NCBI RefSeq assembly: GCF_040183065.1
Contig: NW_027185566.1
Coordinates: 496,001 to 560,000, forward strand
DNA from: Periplaneta americana
Taxonomy: Eukaryota > Arthropoda > Insecta > Blattodea > Blattidae
Direction of reading: 5' to 3'
DNA length: 64,000 nucleotides
Shown: positions 21,752 to 63,102 of the stretch, one piece after another
How positions within the stretch are numbered: the stretch's first letter is position 1
How the letters are laid out: each line of letters starts with the position of its first letter
The notes under the pieces: model-generated
What the model was told of the DNA's origin: nothing
Databases searched by the model: none
What the model saw: the letters and a program-made list of their open reading frames with translations, nothing else
Translations under genes and position numbers: made by a program

Positions 21752-23200
21752 CTATCGTCTTTCCAAAATGGTTTTTCTAGATTTTTTTTGTTTTTTCTTG
21801 GGATACTTTCGGACTTTTTTCTTTATTTTTTTAGAATGTTTTTTTTGAGGATGAATATTTAAGAAACTCTGTAATCGTTTGGCTAAAATATATTTTTTCC
21901 CTTGTCTGAGAGAAAAAATAACAGATTTTAAATTGATTCTTGACAAAATTTCTTTGGAAAAATTTTTCAAATAGTACTGAATCATAAATAAATTGTTATA
22001 CTGCAATGCTAAATCCCAAGGAGTTTGTTTATGGATATTTACAGAAAAAAAGACATATTTTTTTAGTATAGTCTTATCTAAGACAAATAATGAAACCTTA
22101 TATTTTGCAAAATAATGTAATAAATTATTTCTATCCTTATCCACTTGAGTATAATTATGAGGTAGAGAAAAATAAGCGTCATACAAATTTTTTCTATTCA
22201 ACTCTAGTAACTGCATCAAAGGAGTCTGCTTTTTTTTGTTAAGAATGTTAAAATTTGTATGACTGGCAAGAATTTTGACCATACTATCATCTAAACGTTC
22301 TTGAGCCAAAGCCAAAGGTGTTTTTCCGTGTGCATCTTTCTGATTGACAAGGTGGTGATAACTGAGTAAAGATTTGATTAAACCATTATTACCAGAAAGA
22401 ACAGCTGCATGCAATATATTTCTGCCATCCAAACCCACAATATTGGATAAAGCCCCTTGATGAAGCAAATATGTTACAATTTTTTGATGCCCTTGTAATA
22501 CCGCATTATACAGAGGGGTATGACCAATATGATCTTGCAAATTTAAATTTATCTTATGTTTAACCAAAAATTCTACTACTTGAAAATGTCCATTTCCAGC
22601 TGCATAATGTAAAGCTGATAAACCATCTTGATCAGTAGCATTTTTATTGATTTTTTGGTTAAAATGGTTAAAAATACTGGATAAATAGAAATTTAAACCC
22701 ATATAACTGATTATATGTAAAGGAGTTAATCCAGTAAAATTACTCAAATTAATATCTACCTCCCTTTGAGAAAGTAAAAACGAAATAACTTTGAAAGATT
22801 TATGATAAAAAGCCAAGAGTAACGGCGTATCTCCCTGTTTATTTTGAACGTTTATTTGGGCATTTTTCGATATAAGTTGTTGAACTATTTCTAACATCCC
22901 TTGTTTACTGGCTATATGGAGAGGCGTATCTCCGGAATTATTTACTCGGTTGAGTAAAACAATATTTTGGTTTAAAATATACTTTACAAATTCTATATCC
23001 TTACTTTTCACAGCCAAATGTAAAAGAGAATTTCCATTTTCATCTAGAGCATTTAGATTGACTAAAGAAGATGATTCACTGCAGTAAGAAACACGATACT
23101 GGGCACAAAAGTGAGTTAAAGTATCTGGCACCCTTGTTTGAGTAAAAAGAACCAAAGGAACAGACATTAAAAAAAATATTTGTCCAATATATACTTTCAT
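21752..23200 (-). CDS. secreted ankyrin-repeat protein (482 aa)
   Basis: An N-terminal signal peptide (residues 1-20) is followed by about ten ankyrin repeats. They are well kept between residues 48 and 320 ('GNSLLHLAVKSKDIEFVKYI', 'GDTPLHIASKQGMLEIVQQL') and weaker afterwards. The last 40 residues are extremely basic, almost all Lys and Arg. Ankyrin repeats bind other proteins; the basic tail could contact envelope polymers or nucleic acid. It is the second of two adjacent ankyrin genes, 2 bp after the first, in the division and cell-wall run. A host-interaction role is possible but not shown. Confidence 0.8.
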   Translation of the reverse strand: MKVYIGQIFFLMSVPLVLFTQTRVPDTLTHFCAQYRVSYCSESSSLVNLNALDENGNSLLHLAVKSKDIEFVKYILNQNIVLLNRVNNSGDTPLHIASKQGMLEIVQQLISKNAQINVQNKQGDTPLLLAFYHKSFKVISFLLSQREVDINLSNFTGLTPLHIISYMGLNFYLSSIFNHFNQKINKNATDQDGLSALHYAAGNGHFQVVEFLVKHKINLNLQDHIGHTPLYNAVLQGHQKIVTYLLHQGALSNIVGLDGRNILHAAVLSGNNGLIKSLLSYHHLVNQKDAHGKTPLALAQERLDDSMVKILASHTNFNILNKKKQTPLMQLLELNRKNLYDAYFSLPHNYTQVDKDRNNLLHYFAKYKVSLFVLDKTILKKYVFFSVNIHKQTPWDLALQYNNLFMIQYYLKNFSKEILSRINLKSVIFSLRQGKKYILAKRLQSFLNIHPQKKHSKKIKKKVRKYPKKKQKKSRKTILERR

Positions 23201-23202
23201 AT

Positions 23203-24345
23203 TTATGGCTGCAAAGACTGAATAATACGAAGATTTTTTAGTTTTTTTGCTAAATTAATGGGAGTTTCTCCATCATTATTAGCAATATTTGTTTGAGCTC
23301 CCGCTTGTAAAAGTAATCTGACCGCACTCACTTTATTGTTACTCACCGCATAATGAAGTGGTGTCTGCCCATAAATATCTCGTATATTAATATCGCTCGT
23401 CACCGGTATAAGTACTCTCATAGCGTCAATATGTCCATATAAAGCCGCATAATGTAACGCTACAGAACCAGACCCACTGACTTCATTACCTGTAAAAATT
23501 TTATTTTTTAAAAAATACTCTATCAACCTATATTTACCCCGAATACTTGCCGTATGCAAAGCATTATACTTAAATCTATGAGTAATAATACTTTTATCTG
23601 CTCCTGCTTTGAGTAAAATTTGGGCAGTTTGTACATTTCCAATATATCCATTCCAAACCAAAGGGCTGTCTCCTGTATCATTAGTCGCGTTCACTTTTGC
23701 TCCATGTTCTAGTAGAATGGATACCGTATCTGAATGATCCCCATGTATAGCAAAATGCAATGCCCTTCCATGACTTCCTTCCGCCGAAAAATTAGGATCT
23801 GCTCCTAGAGATAAAAGATATAAAACAATATCATTATGCCCATTTTGAGCTGCTAACTGCAAAGGTGTAACGCTGTGAATTCCTTTTTTATCCACTATAC
23901 CAGAATTTTCCGTAAGGAGCTTAACAACATCTAGCCGTCCAAAAGAAGCTGCTAAATGCACTGGCATAAAACCATCTTGATTTTGGACTGTTTGACTTGC
24001 CTTATATTGGAGTAGTAAATTGACAATATCAGTATAACCCTGCTGAGCTGCCAAATGAAGTGCCGTATAATTTTGTGGCGTAGTGGCGTCCACATTAACA
24101 CCTGCATCAATAAGAATACGAACAGCGGTAATATCACCTAAAAAAGCGGCATAATGCAAGGGCGTCTCATGATTTTCCGTAAAAACTTTTGTAATATTGA
24201 CTCGATTTGTCTGGATAAGACGCATTAAACCGTCATAGTCTTGATCATCAATACTAGAAAAAACCAAGCTATCCATCAAACTTTGTGGATAGACAGAAGA
24301 AAAACAAAATAGCATAAAAAACGGTAAAACCCATCTTAACTTCAT
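23203..24345 (-). CDS. secreted ankyrin-repeat protein (380 aa)
   Basis: A signal peptide (MKLRWVLPFFMLFCFSSVYP) precedes ten ankyrin repeats that fill the protein, for example 'ETPLHYAAFLGDITAVRILI' and 'YTALHLAAQQGYTDIVNLLL'. The repeats are nearer consensus than those of the next gene and there is no basic tail. It should act in the periplasm or at the surface as a binding scaffold. Its ATG overlaps the stop of the FtsL-like gene (ATGA), and the second ankyrin gene starts 2 bp after its stop. The pair may be an old duplication. Confidence 0.82.
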   Translation of the reverse strand: MKLRWVLPFFMLFCFSSVYPQSLMDSLVFSSIDDQDYDGLMRLIQTNRVNITKVFTENHETPLHYAAFLGDITAVRILIDAGVNVDATTPQNYTALHLAAQQGYTDIVNLLLQYKASQTVQNQDGFMPVHLAASFGRLDVVKLLTENSGIVDKKGIHSVTPLQLAAQNGHNDIVLYLLSLGADPNFSAEGSHGRALHFAIHGDHSDTVSILLEHGAKVNATNDTGDSPLVWNGYIGNVQTAQILLKAGADKSIITHRFKYNALHTASIRGKYRLIEYFLKNKIFTGNEVSGSGSVALHYAALYGHIDAMRVLIPVTSDINIRDIYGQTPLHYAVSNNKVSAVRLLLQAGAQTNIANNDGETPINLAKKLKNLRIIQSLQP

Positions 24346-27005: not shown

Positions 27006-27018
27006 AAAATCACTCGGT

Positions 27019-27113
27019 GGGCAAGCACCTCTGCAATGCACCCATTGACCCTACCGTTGCTTCCTTCCAGACCTAGCGGGGTTCAGATCAACCAAGCCAT
27101 ACAGAACCTGCCC
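27019..27113 (-). ncRNA. ffs: signal recognition particle RNA, small bacterial (4.5S) type
   Basis: About 95 nt on the minus strand. The ends GGGCAG and CTTGCCC pair. The apical domain has the diagnostic GGTCTGGAAGGAAGCA, with the GGAA tetraloop and the asymmetric Ffh-binding loop. It pairs with the Ffh protein for co-translational membrane targeting. It lies 7 bp after tRNA-Ser and seems to share its promoter. Confidence 0.95.
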
Positions 27114-27120
27114 ATAAAAA

Positions 27121-27208
27121 CGGAGAAGGAGGGATTTGAACCCTCGATAGCGGTTAACTATACACGAGTTCCAGTCGTGCTCCTTAAGCCAGACTCGGAC
27201 ACTTCTCC
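27121..27208 (-). tRNA. tRNA-Ser (GGA)
   Basis: 88 nt on the minus strand with a long variable arm, as in class II tRNAs. The acceptor stem pairs GGAGAAG with CTTCTCC, with G at the discriminator position. The anticodon loop CTGGAAC gives anticodon GGA, which reads UCC and UCU. The T loop GTTCAAATC is typical. CCA is not encoded. Confidence 0.95.
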
Positions 27209-40254: not shown

Positions 40255-42057
40255 TTATTTTGAATATCGCTTTCTATCCGTTGGATTTAGGTATCTTTTT
40301 CTCAATCTAATGGTAAGAGGTGTAACTTCAATCATTTCGTCTTCTTCAATGTAAGAAATAGCCTCTTCTAAAGTCATTCTTTTAGGAGGAGCTAAAAGGA
40401 TATTGTCATCTTTACCTGATGCTCTCACATTGGTAAGTTGTTTCGCTTTCATTGGGTTAACATCTAAATCATTTTCTTTGGAATGCTCCCCCACTACCAT
40501 TCCCATATAAACATCATCCCCTGGTCCTATAAATAAGATTCCTCTAGGTTCTAAGCCTTCTAAAGCGTAGGCAGTCGCCTTACCCTGCTCTAAAGAGACA
40601 AGACTCCCTTTGGTTCTTCCTTCAATATCTCCTTTCCAAGGCTCATAGTCTGCAAAAGAACGAGACATTGTCCCTGTACCACGAGTATCAGTTAGAAATT
40701 TACTATAATACCCTACTAAACCTCTTGTAGGGACAGCCAATACTAATCTTTGTTTTCCATCAGAAGTTTCTGACATTTCCATAAGAACTCCCTTACGTTT
40801 TTGCAAGGTTTCTAAAACCACTCCAGAATACTCCTTATCCACATCAATCTGCACCATCTCCACTGGCTCTTTCTTTCCTTCAGGGGTATCTTTTACTAAA
40901 ACTTTCGGTCTTTCTAAAGAAAGCTCAAACCCCTCTCTTCTCATAGTTTCAACTAAAATGGCCAATTGTAATTCTCCTCGGGCGGCTACCTCAAAGATCT
41001 CCGCACTATCTGTTTCGTAAACACGAATGGAAACATTTCCTTCTTGTTCTTTAAATAAACGATCTCGGATCACACGAGAGGTAAGTTTTTTCCCTTCCTT
41101 TCCTGCTAAAGGAGAAGTATTCACGGCAAAATTCATAGACAAAACAGGAGGATCAATGGGTTTGGAAGGGAGAGCCTGTGAAAGTTCTTGACTACAAACG
41201 GTATCCGAAACGGTTGCCTCGCTAAAACCTGCCAAAGCAATAATATCCCCACATTGAGCTTCTTCTACAACAATTTTTTCCAGTCCTTCAAAAACCATTA
41301 ATTTAGTCACTCTAGCTTTTTCAATAACCTCACTACGACTGTTCATCGCTTTGAGAAAATCTCCTACTTTAACATTTCCTTGAGCAATTTTACCCGTTAA
41401 GATTCTTCCCACAAAACTATCATTTTCTAACATAGTTCCTACCATGGCAAATTCTTTGCCCTCTTCACAAATGGGAGCATTAATTTGCTCAATGATAGTT
41501 TCAAAAAGAGCGTTAGCATTTTCAGCAGACTGATCTTTTTCTTTACTCACCCAACCATCTCGACCAGAAGCATATAGAAGTGGAAAATCTAATTGTTCAT
41601 TAGTGGCATCCAAGTTCATAAACAATTCTAAAATTTCATCGTGAACGGCATCTGGACGTCTAGCATCTTTGTCCATTTTATTAATGACAACAATAGGTTT
41701 GAGACCTAAGCTCAAAGCTTTACTGGTAACAAAACGAGTTTGCGGCATCGCTCCTTCTTGGGAATCTACAAGAAGGATCACCCCTTCCACCATACCTAAA
41801 ATTCGTTCTACTTCACCTCCAAAATCAGCATGACCTGGGGTATCCACAATATTAATTTTATAATCTTTATAAAAAATAGAAGTACACTTAGAAAGGATTG
41901 TTATCCCTCTCTCTTTTTCTAAATCATTACTATCCATCACCCGTTCAGTGATCTTTTCTACTTGTCTATTATTGACAGTTTGTTTTAATAATGCATCGAC
42001 TAAGGTAGTTTTTCCGTGGTCAACGTGCGCTATAATTGCAACATTTCTTATTTTCAT
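40255..42057 (-). CDS. typA: ribosome-binding GTPase TypA/BipA
   Basis: 600 residues. The translational-GTPase G domain has '[16 protein letters not shown]' (G1), '[14 protein letters not shown]' (G3) and 'INKMD' (G4). The later EF-G-like domains and the C-terminal '[11 protein letters not shown]' match BipA. It helps late 50S assembly and stress or cold growth. It stands alone on its strand and is divergent from the secreted protein at 42253. Confidence 0.96.
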
Positions 42058-43700: not shown

Positions 43701-43907
43701 AGGTACATCTATTAACATGAATAATCCCCCATACTTGTCAGCTTAGGTTCAAGGTAGAATATTATACTTCAATAAAATCCCCCAGAGAGAGACACCCGTT
43801 ACAAGCTCCCAAAACAAGAACTAGCCCCAAATAATATACAGCCCAAACCTCCACATCAGGCTACAACTACTCCCAACAGGGGTGACAAAATTTCTTTGCG
43901 CACCTCA

Positions 43908-43950
43908 GGGGGCAGTCAAGCTTTTTCTGAGAAAAAGCTTGACTGCCCCC
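43908..43950 (+). repeat. perfect 20-bp inverted repeat overlapping the -35 box (copy 1)
   Basis: Left arm 43908-43927 (GGGGGCAGTCAAGC, then T5C) and right arm 43931-43950 are exact reverse complements with a 3-nt loop (TGA). The right arm includes the TTGACT box and runs into the C run. It could fold as a cruciform, bind a dimeric regulator, or act as a terminator-like hairpin for transcription coming from upstream. Confidence 0.9.
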
Positions 43951-43975
43951 CCCCCCCCCCCCCCCCCCTTATATT
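43939..43975 (+). promoter_or_regulatory. candidate phase-variable promoter, 23-C spacer (copy 1)
   Basis: TTGACT at 43939-43944 and TATATT at 43970-43975 are separated by G, 23 C (43946-43968) and T, 25 bases in all. Other promoters in this window use TTGACT or TTGTCT with 17 bases. A run of 15 C would give that spacing. Slippage in the run would therefore change promoter strength, as for Neisseria porA and opc. Transcription would start about 40 bp before the ATG at 44022. Confidence 0.65.
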
Positions 43976-44021
43976 TAATATTACGTTTTTTTACGTTATT
44001 TCTTTTTTAGGAGGAGGGCTT

Positions 44022-44711
44022 ATGAAAAAATCTCTCTGGCTTCTTGCGGTACTTTGTTTTACGCTCTGGAAACCACATACTTCTTTTGCTGCAAACAAAA
44101 ACAGCGTCTTTTTAGGGGGAGAATACCACTACAACATGAACCTGTTACAAACTTTCCAAGGTCCTCTCAGCAGTCTGGTTGACTTTAAGGACACCGACAA
44201 CGATGTTTTCAAATACACTGGGAAACATCTCAACGGAGGACATTCCGGAGGATTCTATGTCGGTTTTGAAACCAGAAAAGACGGCTCTTGGATCGCCATG
44301 CTCAACACTTTTACATTTGGAAATGTGCCTGGATTCTCTGGACAACACAAAGATGGGAGCAAATCCACTTCTGTGGACTTCCAGTACTTCCAACTCACCT
44401 ATGAAATCGCCATGAGGGCTTACTTAGGTTTGGAATATCTTTTCTTCGACTTCGGGTTTAGACTCGGCGTACAGTTCAATACTGGGGATGGAATCTCCTC
44501 TAACGAGGATTTTAACAACCCTCTGGACAGCATACCAGGTCAAGCCAACATCTTACCCGCTCTACACTTTACTTTTGCATTAGGGGCTAAATACCCTGTG
44601 CTAGAATGGCTCAGTCTTCAAGCCATCTTCCATACTGCCTTCGGGGTCGGGTTGTTCAACGCTACCGAAATCGGTTTCAGGTTGGGACTCTCCTTTGACA
44701 ATATCTGGTAG
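44022..44711 (+). CDS. outer-membrane beta-barrel protein, cassette gene A (copy 1)
   Basis: 229 residues. A signal peptide (MKKSLWLLAVLCFTLWKPHT, then SFA) is followed by a small beta-barrel of about eight strands, rich in Gly, Phe and aromatic strand ends, closing with 'ATEIGFRLGLSFDNIW', a C-terminal strand for outer-membrane insertion. AGGAGGAGGGC is a very strong ribosome site. A longer frame that begins at a TTG at 43896 and reads through the C run is in frame only because 23 C are present; I reject it. Copy 2 differs by a single residue (Glu195 to Asp). Function unknown; a surface antigen is likely. Confidence 0.8.
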   Translation: MKKSLWLLAVLCFTLWKPHTSFAANKNSVFLGGEYHYNMNLLQTFQGPLSSLVDFKDTDNDVFKYTGKHLNGGHSGGFYVGFETRKDGSWIAMLNTFTFGNVPGFSGQHKDGSKSTSVDFQYFQLTYEIAMRAYLGLEYLFFDFGFRLGVQFNTGDGISSNEDFNNPLDSIPGQANILPALHFTFALGAKYPVLEWLSLQAIFHTAFGVGLFNATEIGFRLGLSFDNIW

Positions 44712-44716
44712 ACCAT

Positions 44717-44890
44717 ATGGATAACTACGAGCTAACGATAATTTTTTTACTAGTAGTTTTACTCATTGCTGGTATCTATAATATCGCTCTCTATCGTCAA
44801 GTAAAGCAGTACAAAATACTCTACAGAGCAGAACAAAAAATTGCAACAAAGTACCAACTGCTTTACAAACAAAAACTTAACAAACAATAA
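44717..44890 (+). CDS. small membrane protein, cassette gene B (copy 1)
   Basis: 57 residues starting 5 bp after gene A. One hydrophobic helix (about residues 7-24) is followed by a basic, Lys/Gln/Tyr-rich tail with coiled-coil spacing. The copy at 55080 keeps the tail almost unchanged and alters the helix (VVLLIAG to VLLAITG). No ribosome site is seen apart from the end of gene A, so translation may be coupled. Its conservation in both copies supports a real gene. No family recognised. Confidence 0.6.
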   Translation: MDNYELTIIFLLVVLLIAGIYNIALYRQVKQYKILYRAEQKIATKYQLLYKQKLNKQ

Positions 44891-44901
44891 AGGAACACAT
44901 T

Positions 44902-45504
44902 ATGAACAAAACTATAACTTTGGCTGTCTTTCTGGCTGCAACTCTCTTTTTAGGCGCTTGTAGCTCCTCTACTCCCGTGGGAAACACCAATCCTTTCCCG
45001 ACTTCTATTAAGGTAGATATAAACTCTCTCCCTGAAATCAAAAACGAAACCGCCTCTGGGATGGTCAACTGGATACCTACACCTAGCCCCTCTAGTAAGG
45101 TGGATTATAGCGGCTTATTTATTAACTATGACAATGGAGTGCGTATCTATTTTGACAACGGCATTTATATTTCTAGTGGTGGGCATACAGATGCTATTGG
45201 CTCTCCGGACCCAGATGCCCAAAAGTATTTGGAACAGCCCATTCCATTTGAAGTAAAAGGTCTCACTGGAGTACCTAATACCCAATTTAATAACAAAACC
45301 TGTGCCTATAGAGCTTGGGCTGTTAGGAAAAATGACAAAGAAAGAACGGCCTATTTCTCCTATTACAAACTCCAAGGAAGCGCTCTCTCTCGGATTGGTA
45401 TGATCATTTTCAATGAAGTTGGTAACAAAGAAACTATTGTCTCCGCCGATGGTATAAATTGTGATGGTAAACCTGTGGAGGATTTCATTAATAACCCCTA
45501 TTAG
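44902..45504 (+). CDS. lipoprotein, cassette gene C (copy 1)
   Basis: 200 residues with lipobox 'LFLGAC' and lipid on Cys20. The mature body opens 'SSSTPVGNTN', has a central region with no repeat, and ends 'VSADGINCDGKPVEDFINNPY'. A pair of cysteines (in 'NKTCAYRAW' and 'INCDG') may form a disulphide. AGGAAC is the ribosome site. Copy 2 keeps both ends and the 'KLQGxALSRIGM' segment but differs strongly in the middle, with insertions. A surface lipoprotein under diversifying change fits. Confidence 0.72.
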   Translation: MNKTITLAVFLAATLFLGACSSSTPVGNTNPFPTSIKVDINSLPEIKNETASGMVNWIPTPSPSSKVDYSGLFINYDNGVRIYFDNGIYISSGGHTDAIGSPDPDAQKYLEQPIPFEVKGLTGVPNTQFNNKTCAYRAWAVRKNDKERTAYFSYYKLQGSALSRIGMIIFNEVGNKETIVSADGINCDGKPVEDFINNPY

Positions 45505-45523
45505 TCGCAACTCTCCACAACTC

Positions 45524-45543
45524 TCAGGGCGGAAACGCCCTGA
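45524..45543 (+). terminator. hairpin at the end of cassette copy 1
   Basis: TCAGGGCG and CGCCCTGA form a perfect 8-bp stem with a GAAA tetraloop, 19 bp after gene C. A-rich sequence follows instead of T, so it may be an RNA-stabilising end or a weak terminator. The same hairpin ends copy 2 (55911-55930). Confidence 0.6.
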
Positions 45544-45563
45544 AATAAATACAAGAACACATA

Positions 45564-45601
45564 TTACTATAAAAAAGCTCATGATAGTTGCTTTATAGTA
45601 A
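45564..45601. repeat. 10-bp inverted repeat just outside cassette copy 1
   Basis: TTACTATAAA (45564-45573) and TTTATAGTAA (45592-45601) are perfect reverse complements around an 18-base loop; GC pairs can extend it inside. It lies 9 bp after the copy-1 boundary and is absent after copy 2. Confidence 0.6.
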
Positions 45602-47548: not shown

Positions 47549-47915
47549 TACTATTTCTCCTATTTCTTGTCTTTATGTTATATGTACAGCAATACAAGCG
47601 GATAATTCCCCTATTTTTAGATTAGTTCAAAACTTACAATCCCAGCCCTATGTTCATTTGTACCATCTTCGTTCCGTTTATAAAAGTATAAATTCTATCC
47701 AAGTAGTAAGGGATCGAGAATATCTCGCCTTTTTCTCCAAAATTATCTTCATTATTGCTAAAGGTGATACAACAGGAACAGAGTGGAAGAATTTTTTTAT
47801 CAAAAGAGTAATAGAGGAAGACGAATGCTACTCCCTATTTAACAACCAGCAAATGGAAACAAGAGAAGTAGAAATGGGTAGTACAGGGCTCGAACCTGTG
47901 ACCTTCTGTGTGTAA
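47526..47915 (+). CDS. hypothetical protein ending inside tRNA-Val (antisense)
   Basis: 129 residues overlapping the previous gene by 23 bp and ending in antisense tRNA-Val sequence, so the last 13 residues come from tRNA sequence. Residues 1-110 are ordinary in composition and may be coding. The start lacks a clear ribosome site but could be coupled to the upstream gene. It may be real but truncated, or a false frame. Confidence 0.35.
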   Translation: MKTHLNINTISPISCLYVICTAIQADNSPIFRLVQNLQSQPYVHLYHLRSVYKSINSIQVVRDREYLAFFSKIIFIIAKGDTTGTEWKNFFIKRVIEEDECYSLFNNQQMETREVEMGSTGLEPVTFCV

Positions 47916-47947
47916 AACAGATGCTCTCCCAACTGAGCTAACCACCC
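47875..47947 (-). tRNA. tRNA-Val (TAC)
   Basis: 73 nt on the minus strand. The acceptor GGGTGGT pairs with ACTACCC (one G-U), discriminator A. The anticodon loop TTTACAC gives TAC. The T arm is ACAGG/CCTGT around TTCGAGC. CCA is not encoded. Confidence 0.95.
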
Positions 47948-47961
47948 AAAACAACCTAGTA

Positions 47962-47990: not shown

Positions 47991-48081
47991 GTTTTTTTAT
48001 ATCATTCGTTTAGATTTTTTATTTATTGCTCAATATGACTCTACAAAATAACGACACTACCACTTACATAAGGAGGACTTT

Positions 48082-48522
48082 ATGTCTATTCAATTTGATT
48101 TACCATCTACCACAGGTAAAAATATTAGTTCAGAGGATCTGAAAGATCAACAATATATCCTATTTTTTTATCCAAAAGACAATACCCCCGGTTGAAATAT
48201 GGAAATAAAAGCTTTTCAAGCACTCATTGGTGAATTGAAACAGGCTCACACTCAAGTTTTGGGTGTCAATACGGATAGTATCTCCAGTCATATCAAAATA
48301 AAAGACAAATTTAAAATTACCTATCCACTTCTTTCCGATATAGATTCTACATTGGCAAAACAACTAGGCATAGCCAAACCAACAATATTAAAAAACAATC
48401 TAAAGCAATCAGGAAGACACACTTTCATTATAAAAAATGGAAAAATTATTAAAGAATTTAAAAAAATCAAACTCCCTTGGAAACATCCAGCAGAAGTACT
48501 AGAGTATATCAAGAGAATTTAA
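48082..48522 (+). CDS. Bcp/PrxQ-type peroxiredoxin with UGA (candidate selenocysteine) at the catalytic position
   Basis: 146 residues if codon 38 (TGA, 48193-48195) is read as an amino acid. The frame is open on both sides and starts at an ATG five bases after a perfect AGGAGG. The context is 'FFYPKDNTPG' then UGA then 'NMEIKAFQ', the place where Bcp has its peroxidatic Cys (TPGCTxEA..F); the Glu at +3 and the Phe at +7 are kept. The usual resolving Cys five residues later is Lys. No other cysteine exists in the protein. A stem-loop follows at 48214-48240. It would reduce hydroperoxides with a selenol in place of a thiol. A plain nonsense mutation is the alternative; selA, selB and selC are not in the window. 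Confidence 0.7.
48214..48240 (+). promoter_or_regulatory. candidate bacterial SECIS stem-loop
   Basis: TTTCAA pairs with TTGAAA (6 bp), then a small internal loop (G / AA), then CACT pairs with GGTG (4 bp, one U-G) around CATT. The apical loop is about 30 nt after the UGA, within the spacing range known for bacterial SECIS elements. The loop does not carry the G often found in its first positions, so the fit is partial. Confidence 0.4.
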
Positions 48523-48524
48523 AA

Positions 48525-48607
48525 TGGGCAGGAGTGGATTCGAACCACTGTAGGCGTACGCCGGCAGATTTACAGTCTGCTCCCTTTGGCCGCTCGGGCA
48601 CCTACCC
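48525..48607 (-). tRNA. tRNA-Tyr (GTA)
   Basis: 83 nt on the minus strand with a long variable arm. Acceptor GGGTAGG pairs with CCTGCCC (one U-G); anticodon GTA in the loop CTGTAAA. The T loop is TTCGAAT. It is 2 bp after the peroxiredoxin stop, converging. CCA is not encoded. Confidence 0.95.
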
Positions 48608-48623
48608 ATGAAACAACATATAA

Positions 48624-49270: not shown

Positions 49271-49531
49271 ATGGCAAAAAAAGCAGTTTCCAATTCTTTA
49301 GAAAACTACCTTCAAGAACTAGAAGAAATACTCTCTCAAATTTCTGACTCTTCCGTTCCTTTAGAAACTTCTTTAAAATTGTACCAAAAAGGTATTTCCT
49401 TGTACGAAAAATGTTATCAAGAACTAGAGACTTACAAAGAGAAGATTTATGTGCTACAAAATGCAAAAGAAGTTGTGGAAGATAACATAAAACCAAACTT
49501 AGAAAAAATAACTCAAGAAGAACTCAGTTAA
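49271..49531 (+). CDS. xseB: exonuclease VII small subunit
   Basis: 86 residues, two helices. 'SLENYLQELEEILSQISDSS' and 'PLETSLKLYQKGISLYEKC' match the XseB family. Several copies bind XseA to make exonuclease VII, which degrades single-stranded DNA from both ends. xseA is not in the window. It ends over the stop of a convergent gene by 4 bp. Confidence 0.9.
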   Translation: MAKKAVSNSLENYLQELEEILSQISDSSVPLETSLKLYQKGISLYEKCYQELETYKEKIYVLQNAKEVVEDNIKPNLEKITQEELS

Positions 49532-50211
49532 AATAGTTTTGGTTTTTTAAGCTTATAAATGGCTTCTCTTATCTCCAAAACATGTTCATATTCTTCTTCC
49601 AAAATAGCCAAAAACTCTTGTAGATAAAGAGACATAATTTTGTATCTCTTACGGCTCTTAGAATCTAGAAAATAAATAAAATCATCTAAATCTTTTTGAG
49701 GAATACCATTTTCTGCTAAATCTAGTAACAAATGTTTGATCTGCATTTTAATGGACGAGGTATTGGCAACTTTATTAGATTTTTTATCTTGTACTTGAAG
49801 ATGATTCAGCCAAGTTCTTGTTAGCTCCACTTTTTCTAAAGGAGAAAGATTACTTACTTTATCCGCAATTTTTGTTCTATACACACTCAAATAATATTCT
49901 ATAGCTTTATTGAGTTGTTTATGTTGCACTTTTGTTAAAAGATAATCCTCTTCTTCTGGTATTTCCATTTCTCCTAAAGAAATCAAATCCACAGAAGATC
50001 TTTGTATATAAAACATAAACTCCTCTCTAGAATAAAAATAGCATAAAGGAAAAGTGGTAGCTATTAAATTTCCGTCAAAGGGGAAAACACTCACACAAAA
50101 ATTAACCGCTAAAATAGCAATAGGCTCATTTTCTTTAGATTCCCAATAAACAACAGCATGCCCCTTAAGATTTGTCCAAGAACCAATTTCTAGCTGAAAT
50201 ATTTTGTCCAT
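49528..50211 (-). CDS. hypothetical cytoplasmic protein
   Basis: 227 residues if started at the ATG at 50211, seven bases after AGGA. A longer frame to 50400 would run inside ackA and is rejected. The first half is beta-rich ('KGHAVVYWESKENEPIAILA'), the second half helical and charged. I recognise no family. It is divergent from ackA. Confidence 0.55.
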   Translation of the reverse strand: MDKIFQLEIGSWTNLKGHAVVYWESKENEPIAILAVNFCVSVFPFDGNLIATTFPLCYFYSREEFMFYIQRSSVDLISLGEMEIPEEEDYLLTKVQHKQLNKAIEYYLSVYRTKIADKVSNLSPLEKVELTRTWLNHLQVQDKKSNKVANTSSIKMQIKHLLLDLAENGIPQKDLDDFIYFLDSKSRKRYKIMSLYLQEFLAILEEEYEHVLEIREAIYKLKKPKLF

Positions 50212-50293
50212 TTTTTTCCTATTTAAAGTATATTTAATATAAAGTTTAGATACAAAAACTGTATTTGCCAAATTAAATATCCAAGGAGACCAT

Positions 50294-51487
50294 ATGAAAA
50301 TTTTTGTCTTAAATTGTGGAAGCACAACATTCAAGTACCAGCTCATTGATATGGACACAAAAAACGTTCTAGCCATAGGATTAGTAGAAAGAATCGGCAT
50401 GGATAATGTTTTACTATCTTACAAAGGAAACGGTGAAAAACTCACAGAAGACTTAGGAAAAGTAACCCACAAAGAAGGTGTAGAAAGAGTATTAACCTTA
50501 ATTACTGGCAAAGATACTGGTGTTATTTCTTCTCTCTCTGAAATTAATGCAGTAGGACACAGAGTCGTTCATGGGGGAGATAGGTTTACCGAATCTGCCG
50601 TTATTACAGATGAAGTACTCAAAGATATTGAAGCTTGTGTTCCATTAGCACCTCTACATAATCCTGCTAATATTATTGGAATTCAATCCATAAAAGCGGT
50701 TATGCCCAATGTTCCTAATGTAGCCGTTTTTGATACAGCTTACCATCAGACTATGCCTCCTGAGTCTTATAGATACGCTATTCCTAGTCATTTTTATCAC
50801 AAAAATAAAATTAGAAAATATGGTTTTCATGGAACTTCACATCAATATGTTTCTCAAGAAACAGCTCAGTTATTGGGTATTCCTTATGAAAAATTTAATG
50901 CCATTACATGTCATCTAGGAGGGGGCTGTAGTTTATCTGCAATTCAAAATGGAAAGTCTTACGACACTTCTATGGGTTTAACTCCATTACAGGGGCTTAT
51001 TATGGCAAGTCGCTCTGGAGATATTGACCCTGCCATCCCTTACTTTATGACACAAAACTGCAATATGTCCATTCAAGAAGTAGATGAGACTCTCAACAAA
51101 AAAAGTGGGCTTTTAGCATTATCCGAACTTTCTATGGACTTAAGAGATATAGAAAGTGCTGCTGAAGAAGGGGATAAAAATGCTCAACTCGCTATTGATG
51201 CTTTTGTCCATAGAGTAGTACACTATATTGGTGGGTATGCCGCCCTGCTAGGACGTGTAGATGCTATTATTTTTACCGCTGGTATTGGAGAAAATGGAAA
51301 AGAAATGAGAAAATGGATCGCTTCTAGACTTTCTATCTTTGGTGTTAAACTCAGCGATGCAAAAAATGATGTACGAGGTAAAGCTACCGTTATCAGCGAA
51401 GACAATTCCGCTATAAAAGTAGTTCTTATGCCTACTAATGAAGAGTTGATGATTGCTCAGGACACCCAAAAACTCACAGCGAAATAA
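50294..51487 (+). CDS. ackA: acetate kinase
   Basis: 397 residues, normal length. The ASKHA-fold marks are 'NCGSTTFKYQLI', 'GHRVVHGGDRF', 'DTAYHQTMP', 'GFHGTSHQYVS' and 'CHLGGGCSLSAI'. It makes ATP from acetyl phosphate at the end of fermentation, so the organism probably ferments sugars to acetate. AAGGAGA is the ribosome site. pta is not adjacent. Confidence 0.97.
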   Translation: MKIFVLNCGSTTFKYQLIDMDTKNVLAIGLVERIGMDNVLLSYKGNGEKLTEDLGKVTHKEGVERVLTLITGKDTGVISSLSEINAVGHRVVHGGDRFTESAVITDEVLKDIEACVPLAPLHNPANIIGIQSIKAVMPNVPNVAVFDTAYHQTMPPESYRYAIPSHFYHKNKIRKYGFHGTSHQYVSQETAQLLGIPYEKFNAITCHLGGGCSLSAIQNGKSYDTSMGLTPLQGLIMASRSGDIDPAIPYFMTQNCNMSIQEVDETLNKKSGLLALSELSMDLRDIESAAEEGDKNAQLAIDAFVHRVVHYIGGYAALLGRVDAIIFTAGIGENGKEMRKWIASRLSIFGVKLSDAKNDVRGKATVISEDNSAIKVVLMPTNEELMIAQDTQKLTAK

Positions 51488-54384: not shown

Positions 54385-55074
54385 ATGAAAAAATCTCTCT
54401 GGCTTCTTGCGGTACTTTGTTTTACGCTCTGGAAACCACATACTTCTTTTGCTGCAAACAAAAACAGCGTCTTTTTAGGGGGAGAATACCACTACAATAT
54501 GAACCTGTTACAAACTTTCCAAGGTCCTCTCAGCAGTCTGGTCGACTTTAAGGACACCGACAACGATGTTTTCAAATACACTGGGAAACATCTCAACGGA
54601 GGACATTCCGGAGGATTCTATGTCGGTTTTGAAACCAGAAAAGACGGCTCTTGGATCGCCATGCTCAACACTTTTACATTTGGAAATGTGCCTGGATTCT
54701 CTGGACAACACAAAGATGGGAGCAAATCCACTTCTGTGGACTTCCAGTACTTCCAACTCACCTATGAAATCGCCATGAGGGCTTACTTAGGTTTGGAATA
54801 TCTTTTCTTCGACTTCGGGTTTAGACTCGGCGTACAGTTCAATACTGGGGATGGAATCTCCTCTAACGAGGATTTTAACAACCCTCTGGACAGCATACCA
54901 GGTCAAGCCAACATCTTACCCGCTCTACACTTTACTTTTGCATTGGGGGCTAAATACCCTGTGCTCGACTGGCTCAGTCTTCAAGCCATCTTCCATACTG
55001 CCTTCGGTGTCGGGTTGTTCAACGCTACCGAAATCGGTTTCAGGTTGGGACTCTCTTTTGACAATATCTGGTAA
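54385..55074 (+). CDS. outer-membrane beta-barrel protein, cassette gene A (copy 2)
   Basis: 229 residues, the same protein as the one encoded at 44022 except Asp for Glu at 195; only a handful of silent base changes are seen. Signal peptide, small barrel and terminal 'GLSFDNIW' as in copy 1. AGGAGGAGGGC before the ATG. With 25 C in the leader, the upstream TTG-initiated frame is no longer joined to the gene, which argues that the true start is this ATG in both copies. Near-identity against a diverged gene C suggests gene conversion or strong selection on gene A. Confidence 0.8.
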   Translation: MKKSLWLLAVLCFTLWKPHTSFAANKNSVFLGGEYHYNMNLLQTFQGPLSSLVDFKDTDNDVFKYTGKHLNGGHSGGFYVGFETRKDGSWIAMLNTFTFGNVPGFSGQHKDGSKSTSVDFQYFQLTYEIAMRAYLGLEYLFFDFGFRLGVQFNTGDGISSNEDFNNPLDSIPGQANILPALHFTFALGAKYPVLDWLSLQAIFHTAFGVGLFNATEIGFRLGLSFDNIW

Positions 55075-55079
55075 ACCAT

Positions 55080-55256
55080 ATGGATAACTACGAGCTAACG
55101 ATGATTTTTTTACTAGTGCTTCTCGCTATCACTGGTATCTATAATATCGCTCTCTATCGTCAAGTAAAGCAGTACAAAATACTCTACAGAGCAGAACAAA
55201 AAATTGCAACAAAGTACCAACTGCTTTACAAACAACAAAAACTTAACAAACAATAA
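55080..55256 (+). CDS. small membrane protein, cassette gene B (copy 2)
   Basis: 58 residues; compared with copy 1 it has changes in the membrane helix (residues 8-18) and one extra Gln near the end. Topology and basic tail are the same. It starts 5 bp after gene A and ends 11 bp before gene C. Confidence 0.6.
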   Translation: MDNYELTMIFLLVLLAITGIYNIALYRQVKQYKILYRAEQKIATKYQLLYKQQKLNKQ

Positions 55257-55267
55257 AGGAACACATT

Positions 55268-55891
55268 ATGAACGAAACTATAACTTCGGCTGTCTTTTTG
55301 GCTGTCTTTTTGGCTGCAACTCTCTTTTTAGGCGCTTGTAGCTCCTCTACTCCTGTGGGAAACACCAATCTTATCCCGCCCACTTCTATTCAGGTAGATA
55401 TAAACTCTTTCCCTAAAATCGAAAACGAAACCGCCTCTGGGATGATCAACTGGATGCCTACACCTAGTCAGGCGGATTATAGCGGCTTAGATATTATTTA
55501 TGACAACGGAGTAGAGTTCGAAATTCATGACAAAGGTATGTATATTCTTTATGGGCATGATGTATATAACAACCCACAAGAAGATTCCCGAAAGTATTTT
55601 GACCAGCCCATTTCATTTTCAGTACCAGTAAAAGATCCCGCAGGAGGAAAAGTACCTGACACCCACTTTAATGACAAAACCTGTGTCCGTAGATCTTGGG
55701 GTGTTATAAAGAATGCCAATGCCAAAGAACAAACGCTCTATAGCTTCTATTACAAACTCCAAGGAAACGCTCTCTCTCGGATTGGTATGCTCGTTTACAA
55801 TAGCGTTGGTAACAACAACACCATTGTCTCTGCCGATGGTGTAGATTGTCAGGGTGATCCTGTAGGGGATTGGATTAATAACCCTTATTAG
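55268..55891 (+). CDS. lipoprotein, cassette gene C (copy 2)
   Basis: 207 residues. The lipobox 'LFLGAC' is preceded by a duplicated 'AVFL', from a 12-bp tandem repeat at 55288-55311. The N-terminus, the 'KLQGNALSRIGM' segment and the 'INNPY' end match copy 1. Residues about 70-150 differ strongly, with insertions such as 'VKDPAGGKVP'. The cysteine pair is kept. Probably a surface lipoprotein; conserved ends with a variable centre fit antigenic variation. Confidence 0.72.
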   Translation: MNETITSAVFLAVFLAATLFLGACSSSTPVGNTNLIPPTSIQVDINSFPKIENETASGMINWMPTPSQADYSGLDIIYDNGVEFEIHDKGMYILYGHDVYNNPQEDSRKYFDQPISFSVPVKDPAGGKVPDTHFNDKTCVRRSWGVIKNANAKEQTLYSFYYKLQGNALSRIGMLVYNSVGNNNTIVSADGVDCQGDPVGDWINNPY

Positions 55892-61839: not shown

Positions 61840-63102
61840 TTATACTCCTGAAATAGTTTGTAAACCATACATATATTTTTGAAGAACGGTTGGAACGGTA
61901 ATACTACCATCTTCATTTTGATAATTCTCCAAAATAGCAACCCATGTTCTCCCCACCGCCAAACCAGAACCATTGAGAGTGTGTAGGAGTATATTTTTTC
62001 CTTCAGAATTTTTGTATTTAATATTAGCCCTTCTCGCTTGAAAATCTCCACAATTGCTACAAGAAGATATTTCTCTATAACGGTTCTCAAACGGCAAAAA
62101 AACCTCTAAATCATAAGTTTTCATAGAATTAAACCCAGTATCCCCAGAACAAAGTAAAACTTTACGATAGGGTAATTCTAACGCTTGTAAAAGAGACTCC
62201 GAGTGAGCCACCATTTTTTCTAGCTCTTGCATAGAATCTTCTGGTAAAGAATAATGCACCAACTCCACTTTTTGGAACTGGTGGACTCGGAAGATCCCTT
62301 TAGTATCTTTTCCATAAGAACCTGCCTCTTTTCTAAAGCAAGATGTATGGGCACAAAAATGTAGCGGTAATTCCTGTTCTTTGAGTATCTCATTTTGGTA
62401 AAATGCGGTGAGAGGAACTTCGGCAGTCGGAATGAGATAAAGCTCCTCTCCCTCTATTTTAAAAACCTCATCCTTAAATTTAGGAAGCTGTCCTGTTCCA
62501 AACATAGTTTTGTCTTTTACCAAAAACGGAGTAAACATTTCTGTATACCCAGCTTGAATAGCTCGTTCTAAAAAAAACTGTGCAATAGCTCGTTCTAAAA
62601 GTGCTCCTTCTTTTTTAAGCACATAAAAACGGCTACCAGAAAGTTTAACCCCCCTTTCTATATCCAAAATATCCAGTGCTTTACCTAGCTCATCGTGTGG
62701 TTTGGGCGTAAAAGAAAATTGTTTAGGAATTCCCCATCGAAAAACTTCTTGATTTTCTTCTTCTGAAACACCAAATGGAACGCTTTCATCCAAAATATTG
62801 GGGATTTCAAATAAAATTTCTTCCAATTCCTTCTCTTTTTTATTTAAATCTTCTTCTTTCAGGGTAATAGCTTGTTTTAAGTCTTTCATTTCTGTTAAAA
62901 GCGTTTCATCCTCAATTTTACCTTTATGCAAAGAACTCTTTTGATTTCTTTTTGCTCTGAGTTCATCTAGCTCTGTAATCATCTGATTTTTTTGCATAAT
63001 AAACTCTCGGAGTTTTTCTAGATCCTGAGTGGTTCTTCCTCTTTTTTTCATACTATCAGCAATAGTCTCAAAAGAATTTTCGATATCTTTAAGTCCTAAC
63101 AT
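61840..63102 (-). CDS. serS: seryl-tRNA synthetase
   Basis: 420 residues. The N-terminal coiled-coil arm (residues 25-100) recognises the long arm of tRNA-Ser. The class II motifs are 'LIPTAEVPLTAFYQ', 'SCFRKEAGSYGKDTKG' and 'FRVHQFQKVEL', with 'NGSGLAVGRTWVAILENYQN' for motif 3. Its normal partner, tRNA-Ser (GGA), is at 27121. A short TPR gene starts at its end. Confidence 0.97.
   Translation of the reverse strand: MLGLKDIENSFETIADSMKKRGRTTQDLEKLREFIMQKNQMITELDELRAKRNQKSSLHKGKIEDETLLTEMKDLKQAITLKEEDLNKKEKELEEILFEIPNILDESVPFGVSEEENQEVFRWGIPKQFSFTPKPHDELGKALDILDIERGVKLSGSRFYVLKKEGALLERAIAQFFLERAIQAGYTEMFTPFLVKDKTMFGTGQLPKFKDEVFKIEGEELYLIPTAEVPLTAFYQNEILKEQELPLHFCAHTSCFRKEAGSYGKDTKGIFRVHQFQKVELVHYSLPEDSMQELEKMVAHSESLLQALELPYRKVLLCSGDTGFNSMKTYDLEVFLPFENRYREISSCSNCGDFQARRANIKYKNSEGKNILLHTLNGSGLAVGRTWVAILENYQNEDGSITVPTVLQKYMYGLQTISGV

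Follow-up and report, generated by a model that had tools for sequence, protein, structure and literature searches.

A candidate selenocysteine peroxiredoxin gene, with UGA at the peroxidatic position, in a spirochaete-like contig of the Periplaneta americana assembly

The window analyzed here, a stretch of 64,000 nucleotides, corresponds to positions 496001-560000 of C85, a contig of 1,057,713 bases in an assembly of 3,231,669,367 bases and 91 contigs. Flanked by two tRNA genes of the opposite strand, the downstream one starting 2 nt past the stop codon, a peroxiredoxin gene of the Bcp/PrxQ type is preceded by a consensus ribosome-binding site and remains open up to a TAA (48520-48522), with a single internal stop, a TGA, within the sequence YPKDNTPG-U-NMEIKAF (Table 1). 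The frame and the position of the UGA are thus established, with the coordinates that the original prediction had given for them, and further stops, which would have spoken against that prediction, are absent from the gene. As it had also stated, the gene contains no Cys codon, so that residue 38 would be the sole Cys or Sec of the protein. A mechanical list of open reading frames gives 48199-48522 only, placing the start after the UGA; a gene that a standard ORF finder begins 3' of its UGA is easily overlooked. An assembly-wide search with the peroxiredoxin protein (8 candidates scored) returned its own locus as the sole match, marked as having "1 TGA" inside.

Table 1. Coordinates of the peroxiredoxin locus, its surroundings in the window, and the related features of contig C44
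Feature	Location	Strand	Remarks
tRNA-Val(tac)	window 47874..47948	-	upstream neighbor of the peroxiredoxin gene
AGGAGG ribosome-binding site	window 48071..48076	+	5-nt spacer to ATG at 48082; from sequence
Bcp/PrxQ-type peroxiredoxin gene	window 48082..48522	+	146 codons + TAA, read through one TGA
In-frame TGA, codon 38	window 48193..48195	+	peroxidatic position; PxxxTxxU = P31..T35..U38
Stretch expected to hold a bacterial SECIS hairpin	window 48196..48255	+	only weak hairpins; not a supported element
tRNA-Tyr(gta)	window 48524..48608	-	downstream neighbor of the peroxiredoxin gene
serS, seryl-tRNA synthetase	window 61840..63102	-	TIGR00414, 537 bits
Second cysS-like gene, shorter, divergent	C44 16286-17572 (L013 6286-7572)		match crosses TAA
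selD	C44 104472-105515		in-frame TGA at 104514
tRNA-Sec	C44 105535-105625		
selA	C44, ends 107020		mechanical ORF overlaps tRNA; true start not fixed
selB	C44 107024-108805		family match 107030-108097

The homology of the read-through protein to peroxiredoxins is clear: residues 4-124 of 146, a span that includes the UGA codon, match the Pfam family AhpC-TSA (PF00578) with 100.3 bits (E 9.2e-29, cut-off 26 bits). In an alignment with 29 database homologues, collected with a query that carried Cys at codon 38 and hence with a mild bias, the corresponding column holds Cys in 28 and Gly in one (P0022), and a scan of genome contigs added three loci of 30-33% identity that all have Cys there, which confirms that the TGA occupies the peroxidatic position. 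No UGA was seen at codon 38 in these relatives, among which the three genome loci have Cys and the entries of the protein database cannot show a UGA. That both sides of the codon are fully conserved, as had been claimed, is too strong a statement, as the query is 26-39% identical to the 29 homologues; the active-site residues P31, T35 and R112 are nevertheless retained. An AlphaFold model with Cys placed at position 38 adopts the peroxiredoxin fold (mean pLDDT 91.7, with a lower value of 57 for block 101-110), and the solved structures that best match it are of Bcp/PrxQ proteins, 5enu and 5iiz. Three of the homologues (P0008, P0019, P0021) have Trp at positions where their relatives keep Gly, for instance TPWC for TPGC in P0008, and judging from these sequences they look like products of organisms with TGA as a glycine codon that were translated with TGA as Trp. 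A peroxiredoxin frame in a Campbellbacteria MAG (L003 5001-5294) has one in-frame stop (SHLA*H), located away from the catalytic Cys.

Within the superfamily, the protein stays below the cut-off of the Bcp equivalog for thioredoxin-dependent thiol peroxidases (NF006960, 76.6 bits against 140) and differs in subfamily from PrxU, also a peroxiredoxin and presumably the Eubacterium acidaminophilum type (NF040737, 28.3 bits against 270). Nor does it have the makeup of a 2-Cys PrxQ: at what we take to be the two resolving positions, in helices alpha2 (i+5) and alpha3, it carries K43 and A92, and there is no other Cys. The i+5 column contains Cys in 14 of the 29 homologues and the alpha3 column in three. 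The absence of a resolving Cys from a Bcp, which the original prediction regarded as unusual, is not so in itself, given that P0003 and P0008 have Cys at neither resolving position and P0019 contains a single Cys, so that a one-residue form exists among the Cys proteins.

TGA ends 10 of 52 ORFs of the window, a hand-picked set from which 43896-44711, 45115-45582 and 49528-50400 were left out, and is therefore a normal stop codon here. An altered genetic code, with TGA read as Trp or another amino acid, was rejected on this ground and because the relatives have Cys. Assuming a Cys codon at position 38, there are 61 single-base routes to any stop in the gene and 10 to TGA, one of each at codon 38; a random nonsense mutation would accordingly fall on this codon in ~1.6% of cases (any stop) or in 10% (given TGA), which is suggestive and by itself not decisive. 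A survey of same-frame ORF pairs split by one stop covered ~300 kb, made up of C44, the window and two further pieces of C85 of 40 kb each, so that more selenoprotein genes may lie in the remaining 914 or so of the 1058 kb of C85. It yielded 18 rows plus two plus five, that is, 25 rows; it concerned stop codons with at least 30-40 open codons behind them, frameshifts and breaks near gene ends being outside its scope. Two of the interruptions were judged by eye to lie within a recognized protein, the peroxiredoxin and selD, both of them TGA and both at redox-active positions. Nearly all other rows appear, again by eye, to be neighboring genes or antisense frames, and the unclassified ones include a TAG at 41615 and a TAA at 48150 of C44.

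The original prediction hinged on the presence of selA, selB, selD and tRNA-Sec, and all four are indeed found in the assembly, as consecutive genes on C44, a contig of 156,031 bp; the support for their belonging to the same organism as the peroxiredoxin gene is compositional. SelA scores 455.1 bits (cut-off 267.9), SelB 281.2 bits (cut-off 242.25) and SelD, of which the part after its own UGA was scanned, 319.7 bits (cut-off 125), while the tRNA-Sec match of 63.1 bits (E 3.9e-11, gathering score 47) is found by ARAGORN as the same tRNA. The UGA of selD, in the context ITSGG-U-AAKYDP, aligns with Cys17 of the SelD structure 3u0o, which we take to be that of E. coli, and with the Cys of 2yye; from this in-frame UGA at the catalytic Cys position, selenocysteine decoding is very probably in use by the owner of C44. 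Assembly-wide searches were run for selB, cysS and the peroxiredoxin. The first gave 23 selB-family matches, of which the C44 gene alone exceeds the curated cut-off; C85 has 5 of the weaker matches, and the remaining 17 come from other contigs. One of the C85 matches is the TypA of the window, and the sizes of the other four suggest EF-Tu, IF-2, LepA and EF-G; the two of the 17 that were read (L006, L010) look eukaryotic, and a retroelement ORF beside a host gene in L006 resembles those of cockroaches and termites. Seryl-tRNA synthetase, which would charge tRNA-Sec with serine, is encoded in the window itself.

The absence of a convincing SECIS element is the weakest point of the selenocysteine case. 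Four stretches 3' of the peroxiredoxin UGA were folded, with z-scores from -1.5 to +0.65 and none clearly beating its shuffles. The best overall fold after codon 38 (51 nt, the best of five lengths) was equalled by 11.5% of 2000 synonymous-codon shuffles, and the best hairpin with a loop G, at +0.8 kcal/mol, was equalled or bettered by 76% of them. The rule applied for the latter, a loop of 3-14 nt with G among its first two bases, is reportedly that of the bSECISearch model. For selD, a 6-bp hairpin of the expected type (TCCTAA-GGCT-TTAGGA, loop GGCU) lies 20 nt from the UGA, although its folding energy falls short of significance (z -0.5 and -1.1). Some known selenoprotein genes fail the consensus SECIS model, according to an excerpt of PMC9312934.

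Other features of the window include, at 27016-27208, a small SRP RNA that directly adjoins tRNA-Ser(gga) and, at 21752-24345, two adjacent ankyrin-repeat-like proteins with signal peptides, recognized by eye, that have relatives on C44. Two near-identical outer-membrane-like genes (43896-45504 and 54385-55891), both with a related lipoprotein gene behind them, are located ~10 kb apart, as judged by eye, and a third relative, of 51% identity, is encoded at C44 90338-91021. On C44, the region of ~63-88 kb (L018-L020) contains short lipoprotein genes with MTKH/MLKH signal peptides, related to one another and arranged in an array with interleaved ORFs on the opposite strand; with self-matches of about 85-98% identity among the matches listed, the array looks like a diversifying family of surface proteins. 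Positions 132799-142752 of the same contig (L025-L026) encode Cas9 (TIGR01865, 466 bits) along with genes that resemble Cas1 and Cas2 by eye, and self-matches reveal a CRISPR-like repeat array of ~4.3 kb.

By its sequence, C85 is bacterial and spirochaete-like, and belongs to a host-associated or contaminating bacterium within the host assembly. Its gyrA (8000 candidates scored) is 62-63% identical to the two best matches and 51% identical to that of a "Spirochaetia bacterium" MAG, and the flagellar genes of the window, which we take to be flhF/flhG-like and flgF/G-like, fit a spirochaete. A literature search on selenocysteine in Brevinema, a guess at the lineage, found nothing. With respect to C44, its G+C content matches that of C85, and its synonymous codon usage correlates with that of the window at r = 0.993, the mean difference of 0.024 being within split-half noise (0.026, 0.021). 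Tetranucleotide correlations between 10-kb pieces (14 of C85, 15 of C44) were 0.60 within C85, 0.51 within C44 and 0.54 between the two, compared to 0.29-0.42 for three unrelated loci, and the pooled correlation between the contigs was 0.92. A gene family is common to both at 51% identity. C44 contains one tRNA gene, tRNA-Sec, together with, by eye, ParA-like and initiator-like genes (no NCBIfam match at 1e-20), a gene content that suits an accessory replicon, but purA, pyk and sufB are found on it as well. An attempt to use cysS as proof that the contigs complement each other failed: C85 has a full copy (459 bits), and C44 has one that is 34% identical to it and reaches 304 bits where the cut-off is 340, so that C44 and C85 are not simple complements. 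The shortened copy may be a gene broken by a frameshift or near one end, and makes gene decay on C44 possible. On the basis of composition, we infer that C44 and C85 come from one cell.

Taken together, the Sec machinery of C44, the UGA of selD and the match in composition between the contigs make recoding the best explanation of the peroxiredoxin UGA, and we consider it highly likely, from these sequence features, that codon 38 is recoded to Sec with genes carried on C44 of the same spirochaete. Other explanations have to be weighed against this one. A recent nonsense mutation in an ordinary Cys-type Bcp, possibly in a reducing host-associated genome, would end translation at codon 37. Such an accident would have hit the catalytic residue by a single one of the 61 nonsense routes, in an assembly with the full Sec machinery and a selD that itself contains a UGA, and would have left the remaining frame, the ribosome-binding site and the catalytic residues intact; moreover, besides the peroxiredoxin and selD, the 25 ORF-pair rows read by eye in ~300 kb held no broken known gene, frameshifts and short tails being outside the scope of that survey. 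We therefore regard it as improbable, even though codon 38 is among the 10 single-base routes to TGA, a convincing SECIS is absent and the shortened cysS-like gene may be decaying. An error of sequencing or assembly in a codon that is really TGT or TGC appears more improbable still: one base would suffice, but the error would have had to strike the sole codon at which a UGA is biochemically meaningful, and this in an assembly that holds the Sec machinery, and the neighboring genes have open frames.

It is equally hard to credit that C44 comes from another bacterium of the same host and that the C85 organism cannot make Sec, UGA38 then being a stop or a leaky codon. The indistinguishable codon usage, the pooled tetranucleotide correlation and the common gene family all argue against two bacteria, with a single tRNA gene in 156 kb C44 looks more like an accessory replicon than like a genome of its own, and none of the selB-family matches on C85 or the other contigs exceeds the cut-off. 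What speaks for a second bacterium is that the two contigs have no physical join and that both contain cysS.

Assuming that the UGA is recoded to Sec, codon 38 would be decoded by the tRNA-Sec, SelA, SelB and SelD of the C44 cluster, with SelB recognizing the peroxiredoxin mRNA and delivering Sec-tRNA at the UGA. The selenolate of residue 38, held by P31, T35 and R112, would then attack hydrogen peroxide or organic peroxides and be converted to a selenenic acid. As the protein has no resolving Cys, the latter would be re-reduced by an external thiol, such as thioredoxin, glutaredoxin or a small thiol, in a 1-Sec mechanism. The gene would thereby point to a probable selenium-dependent peroxide defense in a little-known lineage of host-associated spirochaetes, with the Sec genes apparently carried apart from the main contig. 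Lacking a clear SECIS, it also offers a clean test of the minimal signal needed by bacterial SelB. More speculatively, and rather doubtfully, the spirochaete might keep the Sec cluster on an accessory replicon essentially to produce, apart from SelD, a single enzyme. This would be a minimal 1-Sec peroxiredoxin in which the selenol is the sole Cys or Sec residue and the UGA is decoded by means of a reduced or non-standard SECIS.

Among known systems, the protein with the best sequence match is an AhpC/TSA protein of Burkholderia ambifaria (5enu), which has the catalytic Cys and an additional Cys in the alpha3 region where the query has Ala. PrxQ of Xanthomonas (5iiz) is, along with 5enu, among the best fold matches, and the Xanthomonas entries include the mutants C48S and C84S. 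The occurrence of Sec-peroxiredoxins in other bacteria, invoked by the original prediction, is borne out by excerpts of three publications: proteins with TxxU are classified under COG1225 (Bcp) (PMC9312934), the motif is given as PxxxTxxU with citation of the Sec-peroxiredoxin of Eubacterium acidaminophilum (PMC13188914), and 91 such proteins were counted in 78 organisms in 2016 (PMC5029168). In the same phylum, Sec decoding is known from Treponema denticola, for which the excerpted list comprises SelD, GPx, GrdA, GrdB and Trx, with Prx absent from that list (PMC1794560), and from Brachyspira, with redox-active disulfide protein 2 as a selenoprotein (excerpt of PMC5330540). Judged by its sequence, the product of the present gene is very likely a selenium-containing enzyme from a family already described: it shares with the Sec-peroxiredoxins of COG1225/PF00578, as excerpted (PMC13188914, PMC9312934), the domain, the PxxxTxxU motif and U at the peroxidatic position. 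It stands apart in its occurrence in a spirochaete-like bacterium, in its score below the NCBIfam cut-off for the thioredoxin-dependent Bcp equivalog and perhaps also in having no other Cys. The gene very probably belongs to the known Sec-peroxiredoxin family, and its interest is in the setting, that is, a spirochaete, a separate Sec contig, a single Cys or Sec and a weak SECIS, rather than in a new principle.
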